A stretch of 38,379 nucleotides of DNA, from contig JAHJRE010000139.1 of NCBI GenBank assembly GCA_018831055.1, forward strand, positions 1 through 38,379, in the 5' to 3' direction. The notes beneath the pieces were generated by a model that made no database searches, was not told where the DNA came from, and worked only from the letters and a program-made list of their open reading frames with translations. The stretch's first letter is position 1, and each line of letters opens with the position of its first letter. This document shows, one piece after another, positions 3,058 to 24,205 of this stretch. The position numbers were made by a program, and so were the translations under genes. This stretch comes from Bacteroidota bacterium. GTDB lineage: Bacteria > Bacteroidota > Bacteroidia > Bacteroidales > B18-G4.

Positions 3058-3096
3058 CTTTATTTCTTCTTTCCGTTTTGCTATCAACTTTTGCCC

Positions 3097-3312
3097 TCAA
3101 TTATTTTTGAATACCGGTCCATTATAATCTCCCCCTGCAATAAACGGATTAAACTTTAGTTTCTCTTTGCATTTTGGGCATTCTAAAAGCAGGCCGGGGT
3201 GTTCCCAGGCTTCATCGGGGAGTTCGAGACAGGGGGATTGATCAGGTACTAATAGATACTTTTTCTTAATGGAATCAAGGGTTGCCAACTTACTTTTGTT
3301 TCTCCATAGCAT
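3097..3312 (-). CDS. Small CPxC (zinc-knuckle-like) protein
   Basis: 71 residues from ATG 3312 (MLWRNKSKLATLDSIKKKYL); an in-frame ATG at 3348 would add 12 residues. Either start overlaps the end of the Nudix-TIR gene (stop at 3290), so the two are probably translationally coupled. The body has QSPCLELPDEAWEHPGLLLE and then CPKCKEKLKFNPF. A single CxxC pair plus one earlier Cys is visible, so it may bind metal only as a half-site or dimer. The end of this gene is repeated as relics at 2366-2434 and 8674-8718, the latter sharing 24 identical bases (3137-3160 and 8693-8716). I do not recognise the family. Confidence 0.6.
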   Translation of the reverse strand: MLWRNKSKLATLDSIKKKYLLVPDQSPCLELPDEAWEHPGLLLECPKCKEKLKFNPFIAGGDYNGPVFKNN

Positions 3313-4921: not shown

Positions 4922-6448
4922 TTAGTATTCAATTTTAGTCAGCCTTGTTGAATATTGCAAATCTTGTGAAATTAAACCTAATAGGGTATGATTTTGAAGG
5001 AATTCCAGATTGTTTTCAATAAACCGCCTCAACATGACATATTGAATGCCTCCAACTTCCTTATTGTTGAGAAGAACATCTTTTTGTATTGCGTTGATTG
5101 TTCCCTCACGAACCTTACGTTCATTGCCCGAATCGGCATAGGCAATGATTTTATACCAGCGAAGATAACTCTCTTCACGCTCATCAATAGCTTGTGACTC
5201 GTCAATTTTAAGGATTATGCTAATGTATCCCTCTCGGTCATAGCGCTGGGTGGAACCCTCCTGGATTCTTTTAAGAATTAAAAGGCGTAGGTAAAGCTGA
5301 GCTATTCTTCCTACAGGTCTTTTAGTTTTGTCATCGATGCCTTTAACAGATTCAACAGCTTTTTCAAGGTTTTCAATTGAATTCTTCAGTTCTAAGGTTG
5401 ACTTTGTAATATGCCATTTCCACAAATGGAGGCCCCCAATACTATTATATAAACTGAATATTTGATATGGGTTGTTATTTTCAGATTTAACTTTACTCTG
5501 TGCTATTTCGAGACCCATTTTCATCTTTTTCAATCCTTCATCAGCTGCTACTTTGGAATGGTCACGCTCTGAAATAACCGATCCGAATTTAACGTAATCC
5601 TCGGGTGTAAATTTATATCCTCCTGGTTTACAGTGCAATTTGTCCAAAATTCTGAAGCTTAGATCATATTGCATTTTGAAGTACAGCAATACAGCTATTT
5701 CGACTATCTGCTCACCTTTTAGATCAGAAATCATGCACAGCTCCCCAAGTGCTCTCGCACCAAATAGGCTGTCACCATATTGTTTTATCAGTTCTCCGGG
5801 CTCCTTCTTTTGCTCAACCCATTGTCGTGCTGCCATTTCTTCAAAGATCTTGTTTTCAGTATTTTCGGTTTTTGGCATTTCAATTTCGCTTGCTGAAGCC
5901 TGGTATTGTTGTGTAGGGTTTTGGCATTCAGGGAACACTTTTTCTAGTAAGGCATGTACAGGACTATCCGGTCTTTTTTCCTTTGCAGACATCAGAGCAT
6001 CCTTAAGACGGAGAACTACTTCCTCGACAACCTCCCAGTCAATATCTTTTCCATTATACCTATAGAATATTACCCTCGATAATCTTATGTCAAAAGGAAG
6101 CTCAGTACCCTCCCGGCACATTAAAATAGTTCCGCCTGGTGATAATACATGCCTAATTCCTAATTCGTAATAAACATTCGGATTTCCCAAGGACAAATCT
6201 GCAAGAACGAATGCCCTGTCCCGCAGCTCTTTGAACATTTCAGAATGAATGATGTGTGAGCCTGTTTGCTCATCTGCCCGGATGGGCTCCATGCCGGCTT
6301 CTTCTATCGCACGTCGTATCACAATGCGATAGACCTTGTCAAAATCAAAGTAATGATTAGGTTCATCCGGAATGGGTTTAACGCCAAAGGGCATTACTAC
6401 AAAACACTTATCTTTTGCAATGGCTTTTTCTTCTAATACTGTATTCAT
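4922..6448 (-). CDS. Deoxyribosyltransferase/TIR-like domain plus TPR-like helical repeats
   Basis: 508 residues. The first 150 form a nucleoside-2-deoxyribosyltransferase/TIR-like Rossmann fold: CFVVMPFG (15-22), VIRRAIEEAGMEPIRADEQ, then 'DRAFVLADLSLGNPNVYYELGIRH' (77-100), where E95 sits at the position of the catalytic Glu of this fold. The rest (about 200-500) is a run of amphipathic helices resembling TPR or the DUF4071/'TRAFs-binding' helical region that commonly follows this N-terminal domain. The family recurs next to TIR, caspase and NACHT genes in bacterial conflict loci. It probably binds or hydrolyses an NAD-like or nucleotide substrate, with the repeats as a protein-binding platform. 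It lies 9 bases from the next gene in the operon. Confidence 0.78.
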   Translation of the reverse strand: MNTVLEEKAIAKDKCFVVMPFGVKPIPDEPNHYFDFDKVYRIVIRRAIEEAGMEPIRADEQTGSHIIHSEMFKELRDRAFVLADLSLGNPNVYYELGIRHVLSPGGTILMCREGTELPFDIRLSRVIFYRYNGKDIDWEVVEEVVLRLKDALMSAKEKRPDSPVHALLEKVFPECQNPTQQYQASASEIEMPKTENTENKIFEEMAARQWVEQKKEPGELIKQYGDSLFGARALGELCMISDLKGEQIVEIAVLLYFKMQYDLSFRILDKLHCKPGGYKFTPEDYVKFGSVISERDHSKVAADEGLKKMKMGLEIAQSKVKSENNNPYQIFSLYNSIGGLHLWKWHITKSTLELKNSIENLEKAVESVKGIDDKTKRPVGRIAQLYLRLLILKRIQEGSTQRYDREGYISIILKIDESQAIDEREESYLRWYKIIAYADSGNERKVREGTINAIQKDVLLNNKEVGGIQYVMLRRFIENNLEFLQNHTLLGLISQDLQYSTRLTKIEY

Positions 6449-6787: not shown

Positions 6788-8617
6788 TCAACCTTCCAAT
6801 TTGCAAATCTTCATTTTGAATTCTTCTGATTTCAATATTATTGGAATTTCATTAATTGCATCAATGTCATACTGTTGTATATCACCTAATTCTGCCCAGG
6901 AAACTAAATTGTCGTGTATTTTCATTTTGTCATTCCGTTTTCCATATTTCCATCCCGACAGAAAACGGTCAGCATTCCAGCGGCGATGTTCCATATTGGC
7001 TAATTGATCGATTAATGTCTTATTATTAGGGAATGGTGACTCAGGCCTTAGATCATTCATATCGCATTTCTCACAACCAATTGCACGAAGTTTTACATCT
7101 ATGTGTGCTGCCAGGCTTCGATTGCTTTGCTTGCATTCTTCACTCAACTGGTTCCATTCAGTCATACAAGATTTTGGTTGTGGCTTTTCAATTTCTTCAC
7201 CCTTTCCCCTTTTTTCTTCATATTTTTTCATTTTCTCTTTGAAGCGTTTTCGTTCTTCCATGAACCACCTGTTATGGAATTTTTCTGCCAGTCTTTCAAT
7301 TTCCTCTTCAATTATATTATTATAATTACATGCATCAGTAAAAGGATCATAAATATGATATTTGTTTTCAGGTTTAACCCATTCAGGGACGGGGACATTA
7401 TCCGGTTTACAGATTACTGTGTTAACATCATTGTTGTATATACTCTTGATTCTATTTAGGGTCATGGTTTGTAAAATAACATCTTCATGGCACAGATAGA
7501 TCACTGAAATCGGTACTTTATTTTTGAATGTATTTATGATTTCCCTTGTGAGAACTTTGGATTTACAGTTGATCAATTCAAGTTCTATCACCTCATTTAT
7601 GTTCTCATATCGATCGAGGTAATGAACTTTAAGTTGATCCATGTTTTGATCAATAACAGTAAGCTGTGTTTTCTTGTCATGCAGAAAATGTGCTGAACGC
7701 CCCATCATTGTTACAAGTGACTGAGCAAATTTATTGAAACCAATGATCAAAATATGTAACGGTGGTGCATTTACATCCCTGACAGGTACAAAAATATCAG
7801 GGGCATATTTCTTGAATACCAGTCGTGCAGCAATTTCATCCGCATTAAAAATCCTACCATCAAAATTGTTTTCAGTAATTTGAAACAATGAATATTCCTG
7901 AACATTATCGATAATCTCAAAATTATCAACATGAGCAAACGCTCTCAACACTTTTTTTGGGTTACTATTTTTCACCAGTATTTTTGCATTCGAAAGAATG
8001 CTGAAGTTTTTTAGATCATTTCCGGTCACTGTAATTAAATCCCTGGCCTCATGTATTCCTGCCCTTATCAATGAGGTATCAATATTGGCATCCTGCCTTA
8101 TTAAAATACAATGAGTTTGATCATCCGTATAAAAGTGGTCAGTCTCAATGGTCGGATCAATAACAACTACTTGTTTATCGTTATCAACCAAATTTTTTAC
8201 AACCCGTTTTCCAATTTCGCCATATCCGCAAACAATGGTGTGATCTTTCCATTTTTTAATGCTTTTCATTTTCGATTCATTTTTCCATAGCCTGAAATAT
8301 GCAGAAACAACCGCCCAAACCAGCGCCAAAGGAAACAACCAGCGGGAGAACCATAACAAGGGATTTTGAATAGCACTCCCAAATTTATCTGTATCATATT
8401 CAAATTGTGATAATTGGAAAGCCTGGTATATGGATTGCTCAATCTTTGCCAGATCATTAAATAATCCCTGGACAGGAGCTGATGATCTTAAATTGTCAAG
8501 AAAACCGGGCCAGCCAAATTTTTCAAGTATAAATCCAAATATGCCAGATACCAGTGCAATACCTCCAAGGATGATTGGAATTCTATAAATTCTGGTTTTT
8601 TTGATTTTTTGCTCCAT
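6788..8617 (-). CDS. Membrane RCK/TrkA-N protein with C-terminal RyR domain
   Basis: 609 residues. Two membrane helices (about 12-31 and 90-110) flank a roughly 55-residue loop, as in a two-helix ion-channel module, although I see no canonical TVGYG filter. A TrkA-N/RCK Rossmann domain follows, with the nucleotide-binding turn VCGYGEIGKRVVKNL (129-143) and a distal acidic residue in VVVIDPT. A second Rossmann unit starts near 288 (LHILIIGFNKFAQSLVTMMG). The C-terminus (about 483-600) is a RyR domain, with its signature MEHRRWNADRFLSGWKYG, then HDNLVSWAEL and a YD-x-INEIP ending. Bacterial RyR domains are found in nucleotide-centred conflict systems and have been proposed as ligand sensors. 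Here it could be the membrane effector opened by a TIR product. 262 bases without an intact gene precede it. Confidence 0.85.
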   Translation of the reverse strand: MEQKIKKTRIYRIPIILGGIALVSGIFGFILEKFGWPGFLDNLRSSAPVQGLFNDLAKIEQSIYQAFQLSQFEYDTDKFGSAIQNPLLWFSRWLFPLALVWAVVSAYFRLWKNESKMKSIKKWKDHTIVCGYGEIGKRVVKNLVDNDKQVVVIDPTIETDHFYTDDQTHCILIRQDANIDTSLIRAGIHEARDLITVTGNDLKNFSILSNAKILVKNSNPKKVLRAFAHVDNFEIIDNVQEYSLFQITENNFDGRIFNADEIAARLVFKKYAPDIFVPVRDVNAPPLHILIIGFNKFAQSLVTMMGRSAHFLHDKKTQLTVIDQNMDQLKVHYLDRYENINEVIELELINCKSKVLTREIINTFKNKVPISVIYLCHEDVILQTMTLNRIKSIYNNDVNTVICKPDNVPVPEWVKPENKYHIYDPFTDACNYNNIIEEEIERLAEKFHNRWFMEERKRFKEKMKKYEEKRGKGEEIEKPQPKSCMTEWNQLSEECKQSNRSLAAHIDVKLRAIGCEKCDMNDLRPESPFPNNKTLIDQLANMEHRRWNADRFLSGWKYGKRNDKMKIHDNLVSWAELGDIQQYDIDAINEIPIILKSEEFKMKICKLEG

Positions 8618-8673: not shown

Positions 8674-8718
8674 CTAATACTCATCTCCTCCGGCAATAAA
8701 CGGATTAAACTTTAGTGC
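8674..8718 (-). pseudogene. Relic of a CPxC-tail gene end
   Basis: On the minus strand, after an in-frame TGA, this reads ALKFNPFIAGGDEY and TAG. It copies the tail of the small gene at 3097 (KFNPFIAGGDYNG). The DNA is identical over 24 bases (8693-8716 versus 3137-3160), so the duplication or recombination is recent. The rest of the 8618-8879 gap holds no convincing gene, only a 21-codon open stretch ending KVKDLSVKIIERD near 8763. Confidence 0.6.
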
Positions 8719-8879
8719 TCATCACAATTATGGAATTTGTTCAGTAGAATGTCAGAAAATCATTTATCTTAATCACGTTCAATTATTTTTACCGATAGGT
8801 CTTTGACTTTTGTAATTCTCTTAAAAAATAACTCTTACCACAATATTTCGAGTGTATTTTGATTTGTGCAAGTCTCAAA

Positions 8880-11800
8880 TCAGTTTTTAAAATTATATCC
8901 CTCTTTAATATTGATTTTAAGAATAATATCCTTTATATCCATTGAAATGCTTTCAATTGGATAACTTTCTTCTATTTCTTTCTTCATTGATTCTAGCTCA
9001 ATCTGTTGTTTTTTTGTTACCAAAGCAATATCCCTGAACATTAACAACAATTCAGAGCTTACATTTTTTCCGAAAGCGTTCTTCGTTATATTTGGAGACA
9101 ATCTTGCTGGTGTATAAGCAAGGATATAAACAAAAACAGCTAAATTCTCAGAAATAATTCTTTGCAAGAGTCTTGTTCTCGGAGGAGTGTTAATGGAAGC
9201 TCTTAAAACTCTATAAGCAAGCGATGATCCTTGAGGATGTAGGCTTGTGGTTCTAAATGCGATGCTCTCGATTTCTCTTTTTAAATGTCTTAAAGTTTCA
9301 TCCTGTGCATTTTTAAATTCGATGATCACGAGTTTTTTATTCTCATGGTTGTATACTGTTAATTCATTATTGGCTATTTCAATTTTTGAAGGGATAAAGG
9401 CACCTTTCAAATTCGTATCAAGGTTTATTTTATAATCACTTATCACTGCACCAACAGGAATTTTATGCTTTACTAGTCCTTTTAGGATATCAACATATTC
9501 TGGCTCAGCTAAAAATTTTAGCTCAATGAATTTTATGTAAGCAGGAGTATACAAAGGAAGATTTAGATAGCTAATTTTAAAACGTTCACTACTTTGAGAG
9601 GCGAAATGGCTAATTAAATTATTCGCTTCAGATAAAAGGTCAAAGCGGGTATATGAGTCTTCCTTGAATGGATCCTCAATTAGTGGTTCTATTTTTGAGT
9701 TTCTTAATACATCTAACTTCTTTTTATCGTCCCCCTCAATTCCAGGTTTGATACTTTCAATATTTCGGATAACAGTATTGAATGATTCTGCGATTAACTT
9801 ATTCTCGTTTATTTTAAAATCATTTTGCTCGATATACCAGTTGTTCAATTCGACAACAATTTGCATTTTTCTGTCTGCAGTATTTAAGTAAAAATATGGC
9901 TCATATTCATTGTTAAATTTATAGGAGAATTTCAGGATTTTATCATTTAGTATATTAAGCACAAACTCATTGTCTATTTTCTTTGCATCATCCAGATATT
10001 TGCTGGTTTGAAATTCATTCCAGATTTCCTCATCAATAGAATTTAATGAATCAATAATCCTACTTATCTTCAAATTTCTGCTATCTTGATCCATTTTCAA
10101 TGCAATCTGAAATTGATCTTTTAGTATTTCGTTAATTACTAATTTCTGAATGTCAGATTGAGTTAATGCGGCATAATTTCTTACAAATGACACTTCTTTA
10201 ACATATTCCAGAATCTCCATGCAATTCATATCCTTGGTATGAAACAAATGATGTCTGTATTTATCTATTATGCTATCATTAAGCTCTGCAAGAAATATTT
10301 CGGATAGTTTAATAAAGCCTGCTATATGTTTGAAGCATTCGTTATCCTGAATCATTTGGCCTATCTCCTGGAAATATTCTTTCTGTTCATTTGTAGCCTT
10401 GTTTAAATCATCTATAAGAATCAGTTTGTCTTTATATTTTTCACCATAGTATGCCAGCCTTACGGGAGTATCAGCTAGATCATAAGGAAACAGTTTGTAA
10501 AACTTCTTTAATCTTGCATATCCTGTATCGAATGTTTCAATACTACCAATTTCTTCCAAAGCCAGCTGAAATTCATGAATCGTTTTTAGGTTTTCGTCTT
10601 TAATTTCACCAAAACATTTCCAAAACTCATTAAAAAACTTTGAACATGATAATATTGGATTAATCTTTAGTAAATCTCTGATAATACTAGTGGCACCATC
10701 AAAATTGTTAGAATTTACTGCTTTCCTGAATTCTTCTTGCATATTATCGATATCCTTATCTGTTGTTGTAACTGTATTTTTATAAACCCAAGGAAGAACA
10801 GGATGTATTGTTCCAATTTTTTTATGGAAAAATATACAGTTCATTTCCGAATTAATACCAAAATAAGGTGTTAGAATGATATCATTTTTCTTGATAGAAA
10901 CGTTAAAGCTAACATTTGGCTCTAAAAAAGGCATCATATTTATTCCTGCTTTCCTAAGTTGCATATAGATTTCATGCCAAATCTTTTCACGGACCTCTTC
11001 ATTCCATAGTTTATATAAATCACGAAGTTCTGTAGTTCTGAGAAAAAATGAAGGCCATCCTCTTACTAATGCCTCAAATAATACAGTTTGATTAATTTTT
11101 TTGTGAAATGCAACTCTTTGCTGACGCTTGCTTGCATCCCGCTTTTTATTTAACTTTTCAAATATAACTGGTATATTCTCCTGTAAATATATTGGTAATG
11201 TTTGAGAGTACTTTTTAACTATCTCTTCTAAAGCATATTGTAAGTTATGCCATAAGTCACTTAATGATTTTGTAGTTCTAGGGTTGTAAATATCTCTTAA
11301 ATCTATTGATATAACTGGATCAGGAAGTCTGCTGATTACATCCTGGAAAATTTCCCATATTTTTGGAATGGCATCTCTTTCATCTTCATAATCCAGGATA
11401 AGTATCTCAATCATTTGAATAATCCAATCAAAATCGTGAAAAATAAAGTAAGGTGCTGTTCTTTCAAACCTATCTTTATAACTTGTTGTTCCGTAGTCTA
11501 AATCCTTAATATTCTTTGTATTGCGAGTCCATTTTTCAACGCTGGTTAAAAGTTTCCTAAATTTGTCCTGAATAGCAAAATCCTCAATAACAACTCCTTT
11601 TATTTTTGCATTGTCAAAATCATTTCTCCATGATTGATAATACTCTTCTATTTCCTGGAAATCTATGTCTTTTTTCTTTTGTTCCATTGAGGTTGTAGCA
11701 GTATAATAGTCTCTGGTTCCAGAATAAGGAATAATACTGGTATTCCATACTTCATCTGACATATTTTCTCTATCCCTGATAAGCCCCAAAAGTTCAAAGA

Positions 11801-12533
11801 TGTCATTAACTATCCATTTCCCATAAACTTCAGCTCTTCTTTTAATATCTTGAATTCTAAAACTGTGAAGTGAGTTTGCATGAAGCTTTAGAAGTTTTTC
11901 ATAGATTGCCGTTCTGTAAATACTATGATTAATCTTAAATTGAATTGGCTTATTAAAGTTATTTGTTTTAAATTGCAAATAGTCCAAAAGACCAATATTC
12001 ATTTTATTGTCGCTAATATTACTAATCGTTGCAATCATTTTTGAGCCATTAAACTTCTTGCAAGCTTCAATAGTATTAATTCGAAAATGACTCAATTTTG
12101 CATGCCTTTCATTAACAACTTTTACCAGGCCTGTTTTTTGTTCTAAAACTGAAAGATCATTTCGTAGTTGCCTTAATATCTTTTGGTCTTCATTATTGGT
12201 ATTCTCAGTTTTGATCCATAAGCTTCCCGCTGTAAACAGTTCTAAATTATATGATTTTAGTTGTAGGATAGCTTCAATAAATAATGAAGTAGCTTTTCCG
12301 CAAACATAAGAATTAGAATGACCAGCTTCCATTACTTCAATGATTTGGCCTTTTTCATCCGTATAAAACCATACACTTATGTTACTTCCATTTATTAGTC
12401 CATATGGTTCTTCAGTCCACTCTAATAGTTGAGGTACATTATCCTTTTCGTGAAATGGAGGCATACCAAATGGGTATCTTTTGCCTCTTATTGAATCGAT
12501 TATAGTATGGATCTTTCTTACAAGCTTATTCAT
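8880..12533 (-). CDS. Very large (1217-residue) protein of unknown function
   Basis: I do not recognise the family. The N-terminal 110 residues look beta-rich (SNISVWFYTDEKGQIIEVME), followed by a long, mostly helical, lysine/glutamate-rich middle without P-loop, membrane helix or signal peptide. Near the C-terminus, ELTVYNHENKKLVIIEFKNA (ending about residue 1077) resembles the 'xLVIIEfKN' core of PD-(D/E)xK nucleases, with E and K at residues 1072 and 1074. The upstream Asp is not evident, so a nuclease call is only a suggestion. A conserved-looking helical tail follows (LAYRVLRASINTPPRTRLLQ). The gene starts 10 bases after the stop of the acidic helical protein, implying co-translation and perhaps a complex. 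Base use is AT-rich like the rest of the cluster. Confidence 0.8.
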   Translation of the reverse strand: MNKLVRKIHTIIDSIRGKRYPFGMPPFHEKDNVPQLLEWTEEPYGLINGSNISVWFYTDEKGQIIEVMEAGHSNSYVCGKATSLFIEAILQLKSYNLELFTAGSLWIKTENTNNEDQKILRQLRNDLSVLEQKTGLVKVVNERHAKLSHFRINTIEACKKFNGSKMIATISNISDNKMNIGLLDYLQFKTNNFNKPIQFKINHSIYRTAIYEKLLKLHANSLHSFRIQDIKRRAEVYGKWIVNDIFELLGLIRDRENMSDEVWNTSIIPYSGTRDYYTATTSMEQKKKDIDFQEIEEYYQSWRNDFDNAKIKGVVIEDFAIQDKFRKLLTSVEKWTRNTKNIKDLDYGTTSYKDRFERTAPYFIFHDFDWIIQMIEILILDYEDERDAIPKIWEIFQDVISRLPDPVISIDLRDIYNPRTTKSLSDLWHNLQYALEEIVKKYSQTLPIYLQENIPVIFEKLNKKRDASKRQQRVAFHKKINQTVLFEALVRGWPSFFLRTTELRDLYKLWNEEVREKIWHEIYMQLRKAGINMMPFLEPNVSFNVSIKKNDIILTPYFGINSEMNCIFFHKKIGTIHPVLPWVYKNTVTTTDKDIDNMQEEFRKAVNSNNFDGATSIIRDLLKINPILSCSKFFNEFWKCFGEIKDENLKTIHEFQLALEEIGSIETFDTGYARLKKFYKLFPYDLADTPVRLAYYGEKYKDKLILIDDLNKATNEQKEYFQEIGQMIQDNECFKHIAGFIKLSEIFLAELNDSIIDKYRHHLFHTKDMNCMEILEYVKEVSFVRNYAALTQSDIQKLVINEILKDQFQIALKMDQDSRNLKISRIIDSLNSIDEEIWNEFQTSKYLDDAKKIDNEFVLNILNDKILKFSYKFNNEYEPYFYLNTADRKMQIVVELNNWYIEQNDFKINENKLIAESFNTVIRNIESIKPGIEGDDKKKLDVLRNSKIEPLIEDPFKEDSYTRFDLLSEANNLISHFASQSSERFKISYLNLPLYTPAYIKFIELKFLAEPEYVDILKGLVKHKIPVGAVISDYKINLDTNLKGAFIPSKIEIANNELTVYNHENKKLVIIEFKNAQDETLRHLKREIESIAFRTTSLHPQGSSLAYRVLRASINTPPRTRLLQRIISENLAVFVYILAYTPARLSPNITKNAFGKNVSSELLLMFRDIALVTKKQQIELESMKKEIEESYPIESISMDIKDIILKINIKEGYNFKN

Positions 12534-12543
12534 ATATTTGGTT

Positions 12544-13533
12544 TTAATGGTTTAACTTTATATTTAGAAGTATTGGAATTGCTACCAAACCTTCATTTGA
12601 AAAAGTATTTAAGCTAATTGATTCACCGGCATCCAGACGGGTTAATAGGGCATCCTGATTCAGAAAAAATCTGTCACTTATTGTTTCACCATATAGTCGA
12701 GGAATAAAGCTTAATTTCTGATCCTCTGACATATACGTTGTTGCAATATCCAGACCTACATTTCTACAATATGAAAGAGTGTTCTTAAGGATTTCTTTAT
12801 TCCCGGGATTCTCTTCGGAAACTTGAAGAATTACCTTTGTTACTTGCTCATTGAGATCAACGTTTTGCTTCATTAGCTGACCAACTGTTCTTCCAAAATC
12901 TGAATTTTCATTCATCTGTTCGGCTAGTGTTACCATTACTTCTGTCATATCTGAATTTGACATCAGGTCTTTAAAATGTTTTAACAGAATATCTGGATCA
13001 GGTTCTGTATTATGTTCATTTGGATCAGTTATTCTTTCATAAGATATACGGAGAGCATCACCTTTTAATATTTTATAATCAATATGAGCATCCGTTGGAA
13101 AATCTGGATCAGTTTCCAATATTTGTTTAAGAATCTCACCTGCTCTGTCATCTACATCCAGGTTCATTAATGATAAAACATCTGCTTTCACTACATCATT
13201 TAAGTCTTCACTTAAACTGTCAATTGTATTATCTGATAAAATCTCCTTCATAAGATTTTGAGCATTTGGACAATCAGACAATGTCAGCTTACTAATAATA
13301 TCATATTGAATGTTTGAACCAGGATTGTTAGTATAAACATCAACAAGAGCATTAAAACAATCTGAATTATATGCTGATGAATCCAATCCACTTATTAATG
13401 CATCTACTACTCCAGACTCTAATTTTATATTACCTGCTTCATTATTAACTATTTCGATTGCCTTATCAATTGAAATACTACCTGAAATGTTAAATGATGG
13501 CAGATAAGAACCATCGCCAAATAATCTTTCCAT
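12544..13533 (-). CDS. Acidic, probably helical-repeat protein
   Basis: 329 residues from ATG 13533 (MERLFGDGSYLPSFNISG). The frame extends to a TTG at 13587 inside the previous gene, but the ATG lies 22 bases after that gene's stop and is preferred. The sequence is unusually rich in Asp, Glu and Asn and in amphipathic helices of 15-20 residues with Leu/Ile spacing, for example IEIVNNEAGNIKLESGVVDA and LMKQNVDLNEQVTKVILQVS, suggesting a HEAT/ARM-like solenoid. There are no Cys-rich, membrane or nucleotide-binding motifs. It sits between the TIR-FGE gene and the giant gene at 8880, with gaps of 22 and 10 bases, so an adaptor role for one of them is plausible. Family not recognised. Confidence 0.72.
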   Translation of the reverse strand: MERLFGDGSYLPSFNISGSISIDKAIEIVNNEAGNIKLESGVVDALISGLDSSAYNSDCFNALVDVYTNNPGSNIQYDIISKLTLSDCPNAQNLMKEILSDNTIDSLSEDLNDVVKADVLSLMNLDVDDRAGEILKQILETDPDFPTDAHIDYKILKGDALRISYERITDPNEHNTEPDPDILLKHFKDLMSNSDMTEVMVTLAEQMNENSDFGRTVGQLMKQNVDLNEQVTKVILQVSEENPGNKEILKNTLSYCRNVGLDIATTYMSEDQKLSFIPRLYGETISDRFFLNQDALLTRLDAGESISLNTFSNEGLVAIPILLNIKLNH

Positions 13534-13555
13534 AATATTTGTTATTTGTTTATTG

Positions 13556-14869
13556 CTATTTTTTTCGTTTAACACACCGAAATCCAATTTCTCTATACTT
13601 ATGATTTTTATGTCTTCTATTCCGTTTTGCTACATTTCCATTGTCCCAGGTAAGCCATGAAGGACCTCTTACTACTGCTTTTCTTAAAGTACTATCAATA
13701 TTAACAGGATTGAATTCCGTAGATTCACGATAATAGTTTTTTTCGTAGCCATCCAAACACCACTCACTTACATTACCATTTAGATCAAAGACATTATTGT
13801 GATTCGCTTTAAAGGTTCCAACTGGTGATGTAAAAGGAAATTTATCATTTTTTAGGTCCACAGGCTGATAATCTGGGAAGTACTCCAGGATTGAACTGTC
13901 TGGATAATTCGTCTCAAATGGAAGAAATTGGTATGTCGAGTTATTCTCAGAGTTTCTTGCAGCTGATTCCCATTCTGCTTCAGTTGGAAGTCTTTTATTC
14001 TGACGCTCACAATACAATTTCGCCTCAAACCAGCTTATATTAACAACTGGGTAGTTAGACCATTTTGGATCTGTAAAATAATCCGGCATGTTTGGGAAGT
14101 TTGGGTCAGCAGGAATCTGTATATTCTGCTCCTTGCAATATTTCAGATATTCTCCAACAGTAACTTCATTTTTATCAATCCAAAATGGAGATAGTGTAAC
14201 ATTGTGTGAAGGGTTATCTGAATTAATACCTGACTGACCTATTGTTACTAATCCTCCATTTATCATTTCCATATTTTTCATTTCCCTATCTGGATCTGAT
14301 TTGAAGATATCGCTTATTGGATTCCAGAAATATATAATTGCAGCAGCCAATAGAACAAATAATAATAATTTGACAAGGCCTTTTTGGGGGAAGATTTTAG
14401 GATCGACTATTGGTTCTGAGGGTGAAGGGTTCTCTCCTAATGCATTCCTAATAAAACCTAAGATATTCTCTTTTGATTTATTGCTATGAATAAATGCCTG
14501 GCGTATACGAAGTGGTCGAGGCAGTTCTTCTATTGACATGCCATCAATATATGAATATATTTGACCAACGGGCTTTCTTAAATTTAATATATCATCATAA
14601 AAACTCTCCCATTCAAATTTTACTTGCTCCGATTCTATGTGATCTTTTGAAGTCCCTACAACTATGAGTATGCTTGATGTATCAAGAGCATCATTTATTG
14701 CTTTTTTATATTGAGATGTTCCTGTTTTTTTAATAGATTCATTACTAAAAAACACGGTATACCCAGATTCTGTCAGGTAATCATATAGTTCTTTCGCTAA
14801 CTTACTATCTCTTGTTTGTTTTCCTTTACTATCAAGATTCTTAAATGAAATAAAAATATCGTGTGACAT
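13556..14869 (-). CDS. TIR domain - transmembrane helix - FGE/sulfatase-modifying-factor-like domain
   Basis: 437 residues. Residues 1-145 form a TIR domain: MSHDIFISFK, a YTVFFSNESIKKTGTSQY region and SEQVKFEWESF, where E86 matches the catalytic Glu. A single membrane helix follows (LVKLLLFVLLAAAIIYFW, about 165-182). From about 199 to the end is a formylglycine-generating-enzyme-like (C-type-lectin) fold: NGGLVTIGQSG, HNVTLSPFWIDKNEVTVGEY, NISWFEAKLYCERQNKRLPT, EAEWESAARNS, DLNGNVSEWCLDGYE and a VRGPSW...GFRC end. The Cys pair needed for catalysis in aerobic FGE after RGGSW is absent (RGPSWLTWDNGN), so this is probably a binding domain, not an enzyme. The TIR is closely related to the one in the Nudix-TIR gene. 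Confidence 0.9.
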   Translation of the reverse strand: MSHDIFISFKNLDSKGKQTRDSKLAKELYDYLTESGYTVFFSNESIKKTGTSQYKKAINDALDTSSILIVVGTSKDHIESEQVKFEWESFYDDILNLRKPVGQIYSYIDGMSIEELPRPLRIRQAFIHSNKSKENILGFIRNALGENPSPSEPIVDPKIFPQKGLVKLLLFVLLAAAIIYFWNPISDIFKSDPDREMKNMEMINGGLVTIGQSGINSDNPSHNVTLSPFWIDKNEVTVGEYLKYCKEQNIQIPADPNFPNMPDYFTDPKWSNYPVVNISWFEAKLYCERQNKRLPTEAEWESAARNSENNSTYQFLPFETNYPDSSILEYFPDYQPVDLKNDKFPFTSPVGTFKANHNNVFDLNGNVSEWCLDGYEKNYYRESTEFNPVNIDSTLRKAVVRGPSWLTWDNGNVAKRNRRHKNHKYREIGFRCVKRKK

Positions 14870-14885
14870 AATAATATATATATGC

Positions 14886-15040
14886 TATTTCAATACAAAT
14901 CAATCACCACAAAAAAGGAAATCATTTACTAGAAAGACTTAAAATTGTTCTAATTTATGATTTACCTGCTCCCCTCGGATCAATGCTAACATTAATGTAT
15001 ACTTTCTTTTCCCATCACCGAACATATCCATCTCCACTCC
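14886..15040 (-). pseudogene. 3' relic of a second lipoprotein gene
   Basis: On the minus strand this reads MFGDGKRKYTLMLALIRGEQ then VNHKLEQF, stop, VFLVNDFLFL. It aligns with the end of the lipoprotein at 17601 (SNGIKELYIDVATDLSGSQV then NYKIEQFEVLLVNDSLVYL). Base similarity continues past the stop codon into the leader of the next gene (ATACAAATCAATC is shared at 14892 and 17604). A point mutation made a TAA in place of the Glu codon, and the 5' part is gone. It is joined in another frame to the truncated DUF4062 gene, marking a deletion. Confidence 0.7.
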
Positions 15041-15345
15041 GGAATTATTTCCGGAACAGGTTGCCAGCCATACCGGTTTCCCAGCAATACAAGGAAGTTA
15101 GGTTTTGGAGAAAGTTTTTGGCACCTCGAGATCTCGTTTAGACAAATGTCAACCGTTTTCTGGTTCAACTGTGATTCTTCATTCACCCCCCAGCGTAAAT
15201 CTACTGCCTGGAAACGGGCGCCATTTTCTTCACAAAACTTTTCAAGTCTCGGAAATACATCTTTTTGTAAAATCCATCGCTCCTCTTTCATATCCTTAAA
15301 GGTAGAACTTACAAATACACGGAATACTTTGGTTTGTTGTGGCAT
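14992..15345 (-). pseudogene. Truncated DUF4062 protein (N-terminal part only)
   Basis: 117 codons. The first 100 residues are a clear DUF4062 domain: VFRVFVSSTFKDMKEERWIL, ARFQAVDLRWGVNEESQLNQ, then KTVDICLNEISRC and LVLLGNRYGWQPVPEIIP. DUF4062 is a TIR/deoxyribosyltransferase-like domain normally at the front of proteins of several hundred to more than 1000 residues, often with NACHT and repeat domains. Here everything after the domain is lost: at about 15040 the frame runs out of register into the 3' end of a lipoprotein-like gene and stops after 'WRWICSVMGKESIH'. The start lies 9 bases from the end of the TIR-DUF1566 gene. It could still be expressed as a single-domain protein. Confidence 0.75.
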
Positions 15346-15354
15346 AATATAATA

Positions 15355-17583
15355 TTATTTTTGTTTCTGCAAGAACTCATCAATTAGTTTTACTATATTT
15401 TCAGAAAAATTTTTCTGGTCTTTCAATTCTTTGGTTTTAGCTACTAAGTAATCACCTCCTTGCCTATGGCGATAAACATTTAAGACTCCTTCAACATACT
15501 CTTCCGTGCCCTGATCCAATAATTTTAGAAAATATCTTTCCTCTTCTTCAGGATATTTTTTATTTATTAAATGAAAGGCATACAATCTTGCATACCTGTC
15601 TGTTTCAATTTCTATAAAAGAGGCTATTGTTTTAAAATCTATTTCTAATGGATATTTGTTCAGAGTCATTAATGTAATTGTCTCTGTTCTGATTTTACTG
15701 TCAGGATCTTGCAACAAATCGGATATTTTATCAGAATAATACGTGATTCTAAATTCTTTTAGCGTTTTTATTGCGGTATATCTTATTACTAAGTTAGGAT
15801 CATCAGTTAGCTCAAAAAGTAATTCGATTATCTCTTTATCAGATTTGTTTGATACCTCAGACAAGAATGTGATTGCATCCCTGCGCCCTACAATTGATTT
15901 GCAATGCAATGCAAAAGCCTTGTAAATTTCTGATATTTCATTTTTATTTGAGGGAGAACTTACAGCCCTGAAGTACTTTAAACACTCCAGATGGATTAAA
16001 TCTGTCTCCCTGGGATGCTTGAATTCAACATTGGCCAATAATTGCACATTGTTCATGCACATAGGTGATCTGTAATACGATAATAATTTTAGCACTTTCA
16101 TTACCAGTACCGAATCTTCAGTCTCGTCTTCAATGAGATTACATAATATTTTTATTATCTCCGTATCCCTTTTTAATTTTCTTAAATCACGAAAAACAAG
16201 TTCAGAATTTTTATCTACTATGTTTGTTGAACCACCACTTCCCGGATAATATCCTCCAGAATGACTGAACCGTAAATCCATATCATCGATAATTTCTCTT
16301 ACCTGCTTATCGAGGTTAACATCAATAGAGTTAAAATCGGATTTCCTATTTGCCTCAATTTTATGACCTAGATCATATTTACTGTTCTCTTTATTCTTTT
16401 CCTTACTTGCTTCTTGTAAAAGTTTTTTTATATTTTCTTCTGCAGGGTTGAAGTTTCGAACCCCCATTACATATCTTCCACCAAAAGGTCCTTCTAATAA
16501 GTACTTTCCACTGACAAAATCAATAAGTATCCCCAACTTCTTTCCCTCTACTTCTAAAGTTTTTTCTGTCCAAATTCTCAAAAAATCAGGAAAAATATCT
16601 GTATCTAAAAAAATCTCTTCACCTCCTTCTGCTTTGTGGTACTTAACATCTTGTCTTCTTTGCTTTTTTTTACTGATAATGCTTGTTCCTTCGTCAATAG
16701 TAGGTAATCGCCAATCGCTAAAACCGGCATAGGATATTGCATTTGATGTAGCTATCCAATTTATGGCCTCTTTAAAAAAATAAGCACTATTAGGTAAATT
16801 ACTAATCTGCCACATTAATCGAGTCTCACTATCTATAACAACAGACTCATTGCCAAGTTTTAACTCAACAAATCTGCTTTCTCTAAATTCATCCTTTATT
16901 TTATATGAATTTTCAGATGGTATGGGTTCTATTTTGATTTCTTTTCTTACGTTTTCATTGCCTGGTGAGGTATTTTCTCTTTCTTTATCGAAACTTTCAG
17001 GTTTTGCAATTGCATTCTTATTTTTTTCCGGAGTACCTGATTGTATTTCTTCTGCTTTAGGAGGACTATTTTTACATGATCCTTTGTATTTTATCCTTTC
17101 AATTGTTCTTTCCAATGAGGTTAGAATGCTATTTCTGGCTTTAAGAAAATTTCTTTTCGAGTCAGTAAATTCAATTAAAGGAGTTGGATCTCCTGGGATA
17201 ATTTGGGTCTTTACTAACCAGGATGCTGGATGTCCTGAAGGAAGTGTCCATGGCTCAACTAAAATAGGCACAATCTCTAATGTATTCTCATTATTCCTTT
17301 TTTTAATCCATGGAAGTTCGTTGTTTATTATGAAATCAGAATTTATAAAATCCCTGCTAAGTAATAGAATGGCAATATTTGCTGTATCAATTTCATTCTT
17401 TATTTTTTCCTCATACTCAACTCCGGGTAGAGTCTTTAAATCAGTATCATACCAAATGCTCACTCCCAACCATTTTAGGCTCTGCTCAATAAATGGGATT
17501 AAATTAAATTCGGCTGATTTATCTACCCAAGCAGAATTTTTGTGAGAATAACTTACAAAGATTTTAATTTCGTTATCATTCAT
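15355..17583 (-). CDS. TIR - DUF1566 (Lcl C-type-lectin-like) - HEAT-like repeat protein
   Basis: 742 residues. The N-terminal TIR (1-150) begins EIKIFVSYSHKNSAWVDKSA and has the loop IWYDTDLKTLPGVEYEEKI and 'NSDFIINNELPWI', with E89 as the likely catalytic Glu. It belongs to a different TIR branch from the other two. A charged linker (165-235) leads to a DUF1566 domain (about 245-378): VVIDSETRLMWQ, FKEAINWIATSNAISYAGFS, then DWRLPTIDE, the most typical stretch of this C-type-lectin-like family. From about 480 the protein is helical in pairs of about 30-35 residues (ELTDDPNLVIRYTAIKTLKE, SDLLQDPDSKIRTETITLMT), as in HEAT repeats. No membrane helix is present. The DUF1566 or repeats probably recognise a trigger and the TIR acts on NAD. 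It follows the lipoprotein with a 17-base gap. Confidence 0.88.
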   Translation of the reverse strand: MNDNEIKIFVSYSHKNSAWVDKSAEFNLIPFIEQSLKWLGVSIWYDTDLKTLPGVEYEEKIKNEIDTANIAILLLSRDFINSDFIINNELPWIKKRNNENTLEIVPILVEPWTLPSGHPASWLVKTQIIPGDPTPLIEFTDSKRNFLKARNSILTSLERTIERIKYKGSCKNSPPKAEEIQSGTPEKNKNAIAKPESFDKERENTSPGNENVRKEIKIEPIPSENSYKIKDEFRESRFVELKLGNESVVIDSETRLMWQISNLPNSAYFFKEAINWIATSNAISYAGFSDWRLPTIDEGTSIISKKKQRRQDVKYHKAEGGEEIFLDTDIFPDFLRIWTEKTLEVEGKKLGILIDFVSGKYLLEGPFGGRYVMGVRNFNPAEENIKKLLQEASKEKNKENSKYDLGHKIEANRKSDFNSIDVNLDKQVREIIDDMDLRFSHSGGYYPGSGGSTNIVDKNSELVFRDLRKLKRDTEIIKILCNLIEDETEDSVLVMKVLKLLSYYRSPMCMNNVQLLANVEFKHPRETDLIHLECLKYFRAVSSPSNKNEISEIYKAFALHCKSIVGRRDAITFLSEVSNKSDKEIIELLFELTDDPNLVIRYTAIKTLKEFRITYYSDKISDLLQDPDSKIRTETITLMTLNKYPLEIDFKTIASFIEIETDRYARLYAFHLINKKYPEEEERYFLKLLDQGTEEYVEGVLNVYRHRQGGDYLVAKTKELKDQKNFSENIVKLIDEFLQKQK

Positions 17584-17600: not shown

Positions 17601-18161
17601 TTAATACAAATCAATCTCCAGATAAACCAGCGAATCATTTACCAGCAAGACTTCAAATTGTTCTATTTTATAGTTGACCTGAGACCCTGAAAGATCAGTA
17701 GCTACGTCAATATATAGTTCTTTAATTCCATTTGAATCTATGTCATCATAACCGGAAACCGGACCAATATTAAATGCGGTGTCTTGAGTTACTTTTATGA
17801 TGTTCAATCCCATAGCCCTGCAATAGTTTCCACCAGAAAAATAGGGAAAAGCATAGTAGTTCTCGTAAAGGTATTGCAGGTTTTCGTTTATGTATTCTAT
17901 GGTTGTTTCAAAGAGAAAATAGCTATTTCCAGTTTTTGATAGTTGGACAAAACATTGGTATTCTGATTCGGATGAATTGTCTTTTAATTCAAAGATGTTA
18001 AAGTTGAAGTTTGTAAAATTTTGGGTGTGAATAAGTGTGTTGTCAGTGTTTTTTACTTTATTGCAGTTTTGCTTATTTTGGATATCCTCACAAGAATATA
18101 TAACCATATAAATGGGAATTATCATTATTGAAACGTGCCATATATTCGTTCGGCTTTTCAT
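17601..18161 (-). CDS. Lipoprotein of unknown function
   Basis: 186 residues from ATG 18161; a TTG 10 codons earlier is in frame but gives no better signal. The N-terminus is a lipoprotein signal: MKSRTNIWHVSIMIIPIYMV then IYSC-E-D, with the Cys as the lipidation site. The mature part is a small beta-rich domain (QCFVQLSKTGNSYFLFETTI, GGNYCRAMGLNIIKVTQDTA) ending IDSNGIKELYIDVATDLSGS and a hydrophobic strand. The D-x-D-x-N-G-I-x-E-L pattern resembles a single calcium-binding FG-GAP-like or dockerin-like turn. No family is recognised. It lies between the AAA+ gene and the TIR-DUF1566 gene. A decayed second copy is at 14886-15040. It could be an envelope sensor, but that is inference. Confidence 0.75.
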   Translation of the reverse strand: MKSRTNIWHVSIMIIPIYMVIYSCEDIQNKQNCNKVKNTDNTLIHTQNFTNFNFNIFELKDNSSESEYQCFVQLSKTGNSYFLFETTIEYINENLQYLYENYYAFPYFSGGNYCRAMGLNIIKVTQDTAFNIGPVSGYDDIDSNGIKELYIDVATDLSGSQVNYKIEQFEVLLVNDSLVYLEIDLY

Positions 18162-18249
18162 CCAATAGTAATTTAAACCAAAGATTTTCAACCCTGTAAT
18201 AATCTTGTTGACTCTTTACATAATGATGCAAATTGTCAAAATAATAGTT

Positions 18250-19905
18250 CTATTTTGGATCAGCAATTGAAAACTCTACAATTCTGATCCCTTCCCCAAA
18301 TATCAGCTCATTACTCAGTTTATCACCTGTGAATATAAACTTCAGCGGGTTCCAATATTTTAGCATTATTTGCAGGGTATTTAAGTCTTCGCGTGATTTG
18401 AGTTTGTGTAGGTTGTCGAGAATAAATATTGGATTTTTTTTCTTGCTGAAGTAATGATCAATATAACCGGACATTGCCGCAGCATCAATATCTAACATAA
18501 ATGGCTTGAAGAAGGGAAGCTCTTCCAATTGTGTATATCCTTTATCAATCAGGAATTGAATCATTTGCTTTATGAATGATTTCATCCCCAGTTCTTGCAA
18601 TTCGTGATAGTAAACATCCCTGTCTTTTAGTAAACTTTTACCAGTTAACAAGGCCAATGTTGTTTTTCCTGATTGGGGTTCGCCACTGAGAAAGATATGG
18701 TCCGTTTTTCCAAGAAAATCAATAACATCCTTTATTTCTTCTTCTCTATCATCAGAGGGAATTAACGTATCAGGAAGTTTAAATAGTTTTTCTTTTACCT
18801 TTTCGTCTATGTGGATTTCTTTTTGAACTTTTAATCTGCTTTGAACTGCCTTATACCGGTCATTCCGATTCCCAAAGTTCTCAATGATATTGGCTTCCAG
18901 CAATTTTTTGATCCTATCCTGAGCTGTCCGGCTTTCAAATGAAAAGAGATTATCAATATCCCTTCGCATAAATGGCTTACTGCCAAGTTCTGACAATATC
19001 TGAACCCATTTATCTTTTTCTTCCTGTTTCCAGGTAATATCCAGGTTGTCAAAAGCTGCCTTAATATCTGGATTTATTGGGACAGTCTTCCCAATTGTTT
19101 TGTATTCATTTTCAATTAAAGAAAAGTATTTGTTAAGATTCGAAAGAAATTTTTCTGCATTTGGATCATTTGCATTTATAAGAGCAGCGCGGATAAAATT
19201 GTTCAAATCCCTGAAATTTCCAGGCCAGTTTCTTTTTTCTACCAGAGGGATGAGCAAATCAACTATTTTGTGTTTAAGTTGGTAGACTACTTCATGAAAA
19301 TTTCTATCATTGGAAAGAAAACTATTAACAAAAAAAGAAACTGCTCCAGGTATATCACCCGGACGTTGATCAAGTCCTGGAATTTCAACAACTTGGCCCA
19401 GCCTGAATAAAAGTTGGGGAAGCAGATCATCGGGTGAACTATCGGTAGCACCAATGATAATCACATCTTGGGTGTTATAATGTTTGTTTTCGCCAAGCCT
19501 TGTGGCTTCACCGGGATCAATAGCCCTTAATAAAAGTGCCTGGACATCTTTGGGGAGATGGCCTATCTCATCTAAAAAGAGTACTCCATTTTTAGCCTCC
19601 TCGAATAATCCTTTTCTGTCATTCATGGCACCTGTATAGGATCCTTTTTTATGACCAAACATCTCGCTTCTTGCCATTTCGGATGTGGTGGCAACACAAT
19701 TATACTTTAAATAAATCCCGTGTTTGGAGTGAGATTTTACAAATTCATCATAATAATATTGAGCAATAAACTCCTTCCCAGATCCCGTAGGGCCAAGTAA
19801 TAAGCAATTCTGCCCATGCACTGCGTATTTCCTTATCTGATTGTAAATTCTTTTCATTTTAGGGTCTTTAATAATAAAACCCTTAGTAGGCTGATTGCTG
19901 TTCAT
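18250..19905 (-). CDS. Sigma-54-activator-type AAA+ ATPase with winged-helix-like and second P-loop domain
   Basis: 551 residues. Residues 10-250 are an AAA+ core of the bacterial enhancer-binding class: Walker A GPTGSGKE (38-45), the sigma-54 contact loop GSYTGA (88-93, consensus GAFTGA), Walker B GVLFLDEIG (107-115), and the sensor II region NWPGNFRDL (226-234). There is no receiver, GAF or CARF domain in front and no Fis-type HTH behind. A winged-helix-like segment (about 295-355, with RTAQDRIKKLLEANIIENFG) follows. A second P-loop domain then begins with LSGEPQSGKTTLALL (406-420) and has PIFILDNLHKL as Walker B-like. The second NTPase may act as the sensory part. With a -24/-12 element at the head of the operon, autoregulation is likely. 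The likely Shine-Dalgarno sits in a hairpin (19910-19945). Confidence 0.88.
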   Translation of the reverse strand: MNSNQPTKGFIIKDPKMKRIYNQIRKYAVHGQNCLLLGPTGSGKEFIAQYYYDEFVKSHSKHGIYLKYNCVATTSEMARSEMFGHKKGSYTGAMNDRKGLFEEAKNGVLFLDEIGHLPKDVQALLLRAIDPGEATRLGENKHYNTQDVIIIGATDSSPDDLLPQLLFRLGQVVEIPGLDQRPGDIPGAVSFFVNSFLSNDRNFHEVVYQLKHKIVDLLIPLVEKRNWPGNFRDLNNFIRAALINANDPNAEKFLSNLNKYFSLIENEYKTIGKTVPINPDIKAAFDNLDITWKQEEKDKWVQILSELGSKPFMRRDIDNLFSFESRTAQDRIKKLLEANIIENFGNRNDRYKAVQSRLKVQKEIHIDEKVKEKLFKLPDTLIPSDDREEEIKDVIDFLGKTDHIFLSGEPQSGKTTLALLTGKSLLKDRDVYYHELQELGMKSFIKQMIQFLIDKGYTQLEELPFFKPFMLDIDAAAMSGYIDHYFSKKKNPIFILDNLHKLKSREDLNTLQIMLKYWNPLKFIFTGDKLSNELIFGEGIRIVEFSIADPK

Positions 19906-19971: not shown

Positions 19972-21894
19972 TTAAGATTGCCTTTCACTCAACATTTGTT
20001 TGATGAGGGCTTTTCTCATTGCAGCAACGGTTTTTTCCTTAACAAAATGATAGAATGGTGAGTACGGCACCAGTAGTTTTTGGCATAAAGCCAGCTCATG
20101 GGCAATATAGGTTAAGGTGTAGTATGCTTTGTGCTCGTTTTTACTATTTACCAGGAATTCGATAAAAGGATGGTTGAGGCGCAATCCAAGTAAGATATCT
20201 GTCCCCATAACATCTTGTTTTTTAGTTTTTTCACCTTCAATACTTACGAAATTTGAAACATAATCTTCAGAAAGAGGTTGCCCTTGCTGATTGAACAATC
20301 CGGTTGAGATATAGGCCCCTTCTTCTTTTACTTCAAAAAAAGTTGCTTGAATATTCCGTACCGATATCCTAATGTTATTTGAAATGGCTTCTTTCACATC
20401 CTTATTTCTGAGAATTTCATTAATTTCGATGATCAACTCAAACTGCTCCCTATCCAGTTTTTTTTCACCTACAAATTTGCAAAGCGGTGTCAGGGCTGAT
20501 TTACTGACGATTTTTCTTTCCACCAGTTCACTGATCATTTTATTGTCATTTTGTATATAATCCAGATCAACAATATCTTTAAAAATGATGCTGAAGATGC
20601 TTTTATAAAAATCGGGAGCTCCATGAAAAGTCAGGCATGGCTCAGGTATGACAATAAAATCATGTTTGAATGCCCCTCCCAACCACCTGAGATTCTTTAG
20701 TCTTTCTGAATAAAATAATGGTATACCTTCAGTTAGCGAATGTTTCATTTCTTCAAGTGACATAAGTTCATATTTATCAGAAAGTTTATAAACTTTTGCC
20801 TTGGCCAAACTTTTAACCACAGCGTTTTTTATAGGATCTTTACTGTCATATTTTTCAGGATCTGCCAGGTAATCCCTTATTGGATACCGAAGAATGTATT
20901 GATTTGCCAGTATCACCTGGCTATCAAATGATCGGTTGAGATGATCATTTAACTTGTCCATCATCATTTTTCGGAGTAAACCAATTGAATAGTCAAAGTT
21001 ATAATCAAGGTAATAGCTGTCGCGGCTAATTGTCAGCCGAAGGTTATTGTTATTGATGGATGCATTATATCCTTTGATATAGGGAATGCCTTTGGCTTCA
21101 AAATCCCTCAAATCGGAGCATATACCATGCCCCCCCTTGGGGAATATTGATAGATCAATGCTCTTGATGTATTCGTATTTGCAAAGTACCGTTATATGCT
21201 CATACCAGCCGCTCCTTTCAAGAAAACCGGAAACAGGGCCCTCATTGTATATTTTCAAACCTTGTCTTTTGGCATCTTCCCATATTGATTGAAAAGGTGC
21301 GCCATTAATGGTCATTTTGCAGGGATAATACCTAAGGCTCTTTTCTGCATAATGCAGACATTTGTCAACACTTGCATTTCTATCGAACCAAACTTCAATA
21401 CGGGTACTGTAATTAATTTCTTTTTTTAATATCTGTATATCAATTTTTGGTTTTCTGTTTGGGTCAGTAATGGTAAAGGTCATTTCAACTACCTGCTTTT
21501 CGCAAAGGGTTGTTACAACAACTTTTTTTGTGTATAATCCTGGATTGAAAATTGAAAAGAAACCAATACCAAACATCCCTATCTTGCTTGAATCTTTATC
21601 CTTATCTGTTCCTCCAAGGGTGAGCAATAGTTTTAGCTTATCAAGGGACAACCCGGTACCATAATCGGTAATACTGATTGTGTTATTTCCCGTTACTATC
21701 TCACCTTTTCTCTCTTCCATGGGAATATCAGAAGAGTAACTATCAATATGGTTTTGGATCAATTCTTTAAATCCTTTTCCCGGATCGCCACCAAACTGGC
21801 TTGTTATGATTTTAGGATAACCCTCATCTACATCTACATCCAATCCTTTATCGAACTGAAAGGATTCGAGAATATTATTAATCTTTTGTTTCAT
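19972..21894 (-). CDS. GHKL (Hsp90-type) ATPase, second of a pair
   Basis: 640 residues with an N-terminal Bergerat ATP-binding fold: N-box FKELIQNHIDSY (42-53; E44, N48, D51), G1 box ITDYGTGLS (75-83), and G2 box KIGMFGIGFFSIF (104-116). The arrangement matches Hsp90/MutL-like GHKL proteins rather than histidine kinases, since there is no H-box. The length is near HtpG, but I see none of the HtpG middle-domain signatures, and the C-terminal 400 residues are unassigned. It lies 29 bases downstream of another GHKL gene of nearly the same length whose sequence is clearly different, so the pair may form a heteromer. Such ATPases clamp on ATP binding and can serve as sensors or remodelling factors. 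Confidence 0.85.
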   Translation of the reverse strand: MKQKINNILESFQFDKGLDVDVDEGYPKIITSQFGGDPGKGFKELIQNHIDSYSSDIPMEERKGEIVTGNNTISITDYGTGLSLDKLKLLLTLGGTDKDKDSSKIGMFGIGFFSIFNPGLYTKKVVVTTLCEKQVVEMTFTITDPNRKPKIDIQILKKEINYSTRIEVWFDRNASVDKCLHYAEKSLRYYPCKMTINGAPFQSIWEDAKRQGLKIYNEGPVSGFLERSGWYEHITVLCKYEYIKSIDLSIFPKGGHGICSDLRDFEAKGIPYIKGYNASINNNNLRLTISRDSYYLDYNFDYSIGLLRKMMMDKLNDHLNRSFDSQVILANQYILRYPIRDYLADPEKYDSKDPIKNAVVKSLAKAKVYKLSDKYELMSLEEMKHSLTEGIPLFYSERLKNLRWLGGAFKHDFIVIPEPCLTFHGAPDFYKSIFSIIFKDIVDLDYIQNDNKMISELVERKIVSKSALTPLCKFVGEKKLDREQFELIIEINEILRNKDVKEAISNNIRISVRNIQATFFEVKEEGAYISTGLFNQQGQPLSEDYVSNFVSIEGEKTKKQDVMGTDILLGLRLNHPFIEFLVNSKNEHKAYYTLTYIAHELALCQKLLVPYSPFYHFVKEKTVAAMRKALIKQMLSERQS

Positions 21895-23867: not shown

Positions 23868-23882
23868 GCAAGTTGGAGGCCA
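23868..23882 (-). promoter_or_regulatory. Probable sigma-54 (-24/-12) promoter
   Basis: The minus strand reads TGGCctccaacTTGC, which has the core TGGC-N7-TTGC with exactly 10 bases between the invariant GG and GC. The predicted start is about 23856, leaving a leader of about 28 bases that contains the AGGAGG before the ATG at 23828. The third gene of the same operon encodes a sigma-54-type AAA+ activator with the loop GSYTGA. Two independent features therefore agree. Only the A-C after TGGC of the extended consensus is missing. Confidence 0.7.
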
Positions 23883-24143
23883 GAAATTATAGCTTGCTCA
23901 ATACTAAAGTTTTAGGGAGACCAGGTGTTGAAAAATGGTTTGGGAATGCGTGGTTTTTGCGTGAAAATCTTTAATAAAAGCATATTTTAGATGAAGATAT
24001 TTAAAATAGATATTGACTTTAATAGTAAATGGATACCTCTTTTGACAAGTTTTAATAATAGTAAAGGCTTGTTGAAATTTGCAAATGTTGAACCGAAACG
24101 GAAAAGGATTAACCTGTCAGGGACGAGTTCTCCTTAACAAACG

Positions 24144-24205
24144 CTGTCAGGTCCTGCGGATGCTGACAGGTTTGCATCCCGGCAGCACCCGGAGGGTATG
24201 TCGGG
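24144..24205. repeat. Two adjacent REP-like palindromes
   Basis: CTGTCAG (24144-24150) pairs with CTGACAG (24163-24169) around GTCCTGCGGA. Next to it CCCGGCAGCACCC (24178-24190) pairs imperfectly with GGGTATGTCGGG (24194-24205). Both share the 'GGCAG/GTCAG - CC - xxx - GG - CTGxC' design with the hairpin at 34098-34134, so they look like members of one dispersed palindromic family. Confidence 0.5.

Follow-up and report, generated by a model that had tools for sequence, protein, structure and literature searches.

The window analysed here, a stretch of 38,379 nt, carries on its minus strand a predicted operon that starts with two GHKL ATPase genes, is rich in TIR proteins and lies beside a leucyl-tRNA synthetase gene. 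In order from the control region downstream its features are as follows (L023 is the homologous locus in genome G256).

23947-23965, minus strand: predicted upstream activator site TTCACGCAAAAACCACGCA, matched in L023 at equal offset (14/19 identical)
23868-23882, minus strand: predicted sigma-54 -24/-12 element TGGCCTCCAACTTGC, TGGC-N7-TTGC, read from the sequence, at the same -54 offset in L023
23834-23839, minus strand: Shine-Dalgarno sequence AGGAGG, read from the sequence, GGAGG kept in L023
21924-23828, minus strand: gene 1, GHKL/Hsp90-like ATPase (HATPase_c_3; Pfam E 5.6e-12), 52% identical to L023 gene 1
19972-21894, minus strand: gene 2, second GHKL ATPase with a sacsin-like N-terminus (Pfam E 2.3e-7), 56% identical to L023 gene 2
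18250-19905, minus strand: gene 3, predicted sigma-54 activator (Pfam Sigma54_activat E 5e-42, AAA_22 E 3.7e-12)
17601-18191, minus strand: 196-aa protein, no family
15355-17583, minus strand: TIR + Lcl_C (lectin-fold) + HEAT protein (Pfam; ThsB-like TIR in PADLOC)
14992-15345, minus strand: DUF4062 protein (Pfam E 1.1e-12)
13556-14869, minus strand: TIR + FGE-sulfatase (lectin-fold) protein (Pfam)
12544-13587, minus strand: 347-aa protein, no family, listed TTG start uncertain
8880-12533, minus strand: 1217-aa protein, no family
6788-8617, minus strand: TrkA_N + RyR protein (Pfam), preceded by a 262-nt gap
4922-6448, minus strand: 508-aa protein with a TIR-like N-terminus (PADLOC TIR effector E 1.3e-9), preceded by a 339-nt gap
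3290-4912, minus strand: 540-aa protein with a C-terminal TIR (Pfam TIR_2 E 3.3e-10)
2641-3087, minus strand: cREC (cyclic-phosphate processing receiver) protein (Pfam E 5.4e-14)

Intergenic gaps are mostly short. The exceptions, of 122, 262 and 339 nt, may leave space for additional promoters, and the TrkA_N + RyR gene may have its own, given the 262-nt gap before it. Gene 2 also matches the NCBIfam model P_loop_sacsin (5.6e-10, under the cut-off). The N-terminal half of the 540-aa protein is possibly NUDIX-like (REFSEE), the NUDIX structure match being at chance level. An 83-aa ORF lies between the further TIR and TIR-like genes and the cREC gene, and a 47-nt stretch from it (KLKFNPFIAGGD/ALKFNPFIAGGD) is present in three copies (window 2371-2417, 3132-3178 and 8688-8734; 64-72% to the reference), two of which resemble broken remnants of the 83-aa ORF gene. 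A 65-nt stretch at 14911-14975 is 78% alike to 17624-17688, so that sequence from the 3' portion of the 196-aa ORF recurs as a remnant before the TIR-FGE gene; this suggests duplication of a module made up of the 196-aa gene and a TIR-lectin gene. A link of the TIR-lectin genes to a diversity-generating retroelement was rejected, since window 1-24330 holds no template/variable repeat pair near the lectin-fold genes and reverse transcriptases occur on other contigs only, none of them nearby. No Rfam RNA was found in the window.

The GC content of the operon region is 34.8% against 49.0% on the flanking housekeeping side; a further comparison of low-GC islands gave 35/34% vs 44/43%. Going by the named homologue in the order, the genome is a MAG of the Bacteroidales. 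Gene 1 is absent from both sampled genomes of the same genus. Low GC and this absence fit horizontal acquisition beside leucyl-tRNA synthetase, and the immune-like gene set was probably imported.

The minus strand of the promoter region reads TTTCTGGCCTCCAACTTGCCTAAG. The earlier note had placed a sigma-54 promoter core at the head of the operon, and its components were all confirmed: TGGC at 23882-23879 and TTGC at 23871-23868 with N7 between them, the GG-N10-GC spacing, AGGAGG and the first ATG. The GG-N10-GC core thus stands in the TGGC-N7-TTGC context expected of a sigma-54-dependent promoter. A gap of 39 nt separates the element from the gene 1 ATG (23828), and its position implies a transcription start at ∼23856. 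The presence of rpoN, on which the earlier note had made its proposal depend, was checked; the gene lies at 62575 on the same contig as the operon and is also found in G256. Exact TGGC-N7-TTGC matches number two in the 38-kb window when both strands are scanned, the operon element being one of them, and 146 genome-wide, vs 92 for a reversed control. The exact-match rate of 2.6e-5 per position corresponds to a ∼0.4% chance within a given 150-nt promoter region. By itself the motif is weak evidence because of these 146 sites. The element could be a chance match, with an ordinary housekeeping promoter driving the operon and the AAA+ protein being no transcription activator but a signalling NTPase. 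The frequency of the 8-base pattern fits such a reading, as do the lack of a detected Fis helix in gene 3 and the presence of sigma-70-like hexamers upstream, though these are not above chance.

The element gains significance because it is conserved in a homologous locus. Searching 295 genomes of the order with the C-terminal half of the activator as query returned one clear homologue, in G256, a member of another Bacteroidales family (contig DAOWEV010000044.1). The head of the L023 operon has HATPase, HATPase and activator in the same order (52, 56 and 41% identity); the contig ends inside the activator gene, and the comparison is of the operon head in this one pair of loci. Over the 400 nt upstream of gene 1 identity between the two is mostly near random. 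The sole 7/8-or-better element match in these 400 nt lies at -54 from the ATG in each locus (TGGCCTCCAACTTGC here, CGGCACCATGCTTGC in L023), against a background for such matches of ∼3e-4 per position. TGGC/TTGC is kept before the homologous first gene, as the earlier note had anticipated, with the first base changed from T to C. Just upstream of the homologous promoter, at ∼4200-4420 of L023, the translation IFADMQAEWDYLKQIAFPRVEEELQKRRIKLEIVDLRWGVDTTSIQQEDEREANEY* looks by eye like the broken-off start of a DUF4062-type gene. Gene 1 alone as query gave no matches in the genome collection. Neither the activator nor any other searched operon protein was detectable alongside distant HATPase matches in other Bacteroidota, plasmid searches yielded generic activators at most, and viral contigs held no relatives.

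The sigma-54 closed complex requires an activator hexamer, and the GAFTGA loop contacts sigma-54. The AAA+ core with GSYTGA that had been read from the third gene was borne out by the Sigma54_activat match. Gene 3 consists of this N-terminal core, a putative winged-helix linker and a C-terminal P-loop NTPase (AAA_22, 403-527). Walker A/B, GSYTGA/GSFTGA and the WPGNFR motif are intact, in keeping with the AAA+ core of a bacterial enhancer-binding protein, which has a GAFTGA loop, Walker A/B and a C-terminal lid motif. The core begins as early as residue 11, which leaves no space for a sensor ahead of it, and no CARF domain or other N-terminal sensor was detected in gene 3. As for a DNA-binding domain, no Fis helix was detected, and weak winged-helix matches were obtained with the L023 homologue only. 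The best NCBIfam match is RtcR (179 bits vs a cut-off of 650) and the best PADLOC match RtcR_PspF2 (E 2.5e-50). GSFTGA also occurs in three of the host's own activators, and the genome has at least six canonical sigma-54 activators. GSFTGA and GAYTGA are listed as functional GAFTGA variants (PMC6615313); no description of the exact GSYTGA variant was found in the literature searched. Structure models were of low confidence (mean pLDDT 43 and 31) and were not used.

The strongest evidence for sigma-54 control is a predicted upstream activator site together with a second promoter, both absent from the earlier note. The site TTCACGCAAAAACCACGCA is a tandem YCRCGCA-N4-YCRCGCA, its two half-sites 11 bp apart and the second-to-first start lying 82 nt ahead of the -24 box. 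Comparison with L023 gives TTCRCGCAANNAYCRCGCA at equal offset (14/19 identical, shuffle p=0.002), and the half-sites at the operon promoter change jointly, from CACGCA twice here to CGCGCA twice in L023. The 17-bp core CRCGCA-N4-YCRCGCA occurs exactly twice per genome in both genomes and not at all in a reversed control. Combining the upstream site and promoter into a composite pattern gave, over 393 genomes of the order, four matches in these two genomes (two apiece, with identical spacing throughout) and single matches in nine others (three for the reversed control). The other three composite sites keep GG, with variation at T(-26), TT or C(-12). Among the loci examined, no relaxed match to the upstream site had a -24/-12 element at the right distance. 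The 82-nt spacing at the four sites is in the range of upstream activator sites, which typically lie ∼100 nt away; it fits one study, in which most were within 100 nt of the promoter (PMC4641369), while another places them 100-250 bp away (PMC6615313). A perfect 10-nt inverted repeat, AACCTGTCAG/CTGACAGGTT, lies between the operon promoter and leucyl-tRNA synthetase (24111-24172, 42 nt apart); as an activator site, AACCTGTCAG...CTGACAGGTT was rejected, no such repeat having been found upstream in L023.

No promoter information went into locating the second copies of the core, yet at a distance of exactly 82 nt 3' of the YCRCGCA start each has TGGCATAAAAWATG(A/C). These elements are TGGC-type matches of 6/8 and 7/8 (background ∼3e-3 and 5e-4 per position), and the promoter in our genome has a weak -12 (ATGA). 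In both genomes the genes downstream encode a coiled-coil-type protein and a beta-propeller.

L052 (contig C192), 764-4860: coiled-coil + beta-propeller unit of our genome, with a tandem CRCGCA site and the -24/-12 spacing of the operon
L053 (contig C197), 903-3838: coiled-coil + beta-propeller unit of G256, with a tandem CRCGCA site and the -24/-12 spacing of the operon

The two propellers are homologous (E=4e-12, a single comparison); homology between the two coiled-coil proteins was not detectable. In G256 the site precedes a 94-aa ORF and not directly the coiled-coil gene. In our genome a divergent TIR gene sits at the promoter, with PGDYG and AAA-RyR genes nearby. The bpMoxR model gave a weak match to a gene close to the second unit. 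Against a chance match, which we consider improbable, stand the unchanged offset of the element in an otherwise diverged homologue, a conserved upstream site and, in both genomes, a second, unlinked promoter whose spacing is identical. Control of the operon by sigma-54 is, at the level of sequence, well supported.

Which protein would bind the tandem site is a separate question. Sigma-54 control could be real and the CRCGCA site bound by some other host regulator, whether a sigma-54 activator or a repressor, with gene 3 not the activator of this promoter. The host's canonical activators would supply candidates, and the DNA binding of gene 3 is itself inferred. Against this, of the sampled genomes of the order only the two that have gene 3 show the composite site twice, and gene 3 sits within the controlled operon. 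We regard another regulator as unlikely and favour gene 3, whose binding to the YCRCGCA site is suggested by their co-occurrence.

We thus read the region, with a probability of about 0.72, as controlling a sigma-54 regulon that has at its centre a TIR-rich conflict island acquired horizontally. At TGGC-N7-TTGC, sigma-54 polymerase would rest inactive. Bound to the tandem YCRCGCA site 82 nt farther upstream, the gene 3 activator would open the promoter with its AAA+ motor via the GSYTGA loop. Transcription would then cover the genes of both GHKL ATPases, gene 3 itself and the downstream TIR, RyR and cREC genes, and the unlinked coiled-coil + beta-propeller unit would be switched on too. The trigger is perhaps sensed by the C-terminal NTPase, the GHKL partners or both. 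Because the activator gene sits inside the operon, induction should amplify itself, provided that genes 1 to 3 are transcribed together; a single transcript would cover the operon. Self-amplification is plausible, given the place of the activator gene and an AAA+ core that matches RtcR best. The predicted promoter, upstream site, spacing and second target, like rpoN and the AAA+ motifs, come from sequence and comparison, and a defence (anti-phage) role is suggested by the TIR, RyR and cREC contents only.

The earlier note had likened the operon to RtcR-controlled RNA repair. The likeness holds for the AAA+ core and for the predicted logic of an inducible operon that an NtrC-type AAA+ activator switches on together with sigma-54. 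It fails for the rest of RtcR/rtcBA: the scan of the operon genes revealed no CARF sensor and neither RtcA nor RtcB, the activator gene is inside its predicted target operon, and the activator has an additional C-terminal P-loop NTPase. An RtcR-like operon, in which cyclic-phosphate RNA ends set off the activator and are processed by cREC and the neighbouring proteins, would account for the AAA+ core being nearest RtcR and for a cREC gene at the operon end; cREC occurs in phage neighbourhoods predicted for RNA repair (PMC9503650). Because CARF, RtcA and RtcB were not recognised, the terminal cREC domain is the one feature pointing to RNA repair. An RNA ligase was likewise not found among the genes scanned, the majority of genes encode TIR, lectin-fold or RyR proteins, and cREC has alternatively been proposed to degrade cyclic ADP-ribose (PMC9503650), the kind of product that TIR enzymes make. 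An RNA-repair operon therefore has little probability, and we assign the operon to a variant of sigma-54-controlled conflict systems, not to RtcR/rtc.

Other known systems share parts of this arrangement. RtcR-like CARF-AAA-HTH regulators (PADLOC RtcR_PspF1/2) adjoin restriction-modification systems and are likewise predicted to place defence genes under sigma-54 (PMC4012209); here, in contrast, there is no CARF domain, and GHKL ATPases and TIR/RyR proteins take the place of restriction enzymes as partners. The remark of the earlier note that sigma-54 control of a TIR-rich locus would be unusual stands insofar as no sigma-54 regulon of a TIR-rich island was described in the literature searched, subscription papers being mostly outside the search; for defence genes in general, that predicted precedent exists. 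PspF has AAA+ and HTH domains only (PMC4012209). Like it, gene 3 is an AAA+ activator without an N-terminal regulatory domain and so could be controlled by partner proteins; unlike it, gene 3 has a second NTPase domain after the AAA+ core. The highly regulated NTP-dependent conflict systems (eLife 2020, PMC7159879) are similar multi-gene loci of NTPases with many effector domains, and the weak bpMoxR match is a further likeness; however, PMC7159879 names NtrC-like ATPases once, in its introduction, and 'sigma54' never. We raise, tentatively and with the balance somewhat against it, a sigma-54 activator of a new class, whose C-terminal STAND-like NTPase and two Hsp90-like ATPases together replace the N-terminal sensor and convert infection sensing into a self-amplifying burst of TIR-effector transcription from two unlinked loci.

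The usual view of TIR and STAND immune systems in bacteria is that they are made in advance and activated at the protein level. If the sigma-54 reading is true, a regulon with a strict activator site would keep such an arsenal silent and release it through an energy-dependent switch. The known activator architectures would gain one that has a DNA site of its own, and the unlinked coiled-coil/propeller unit is predicted to belong to the response of the operon. With rpoN, the activator and two promoters, the system would offer a clean handle on what is sensed.
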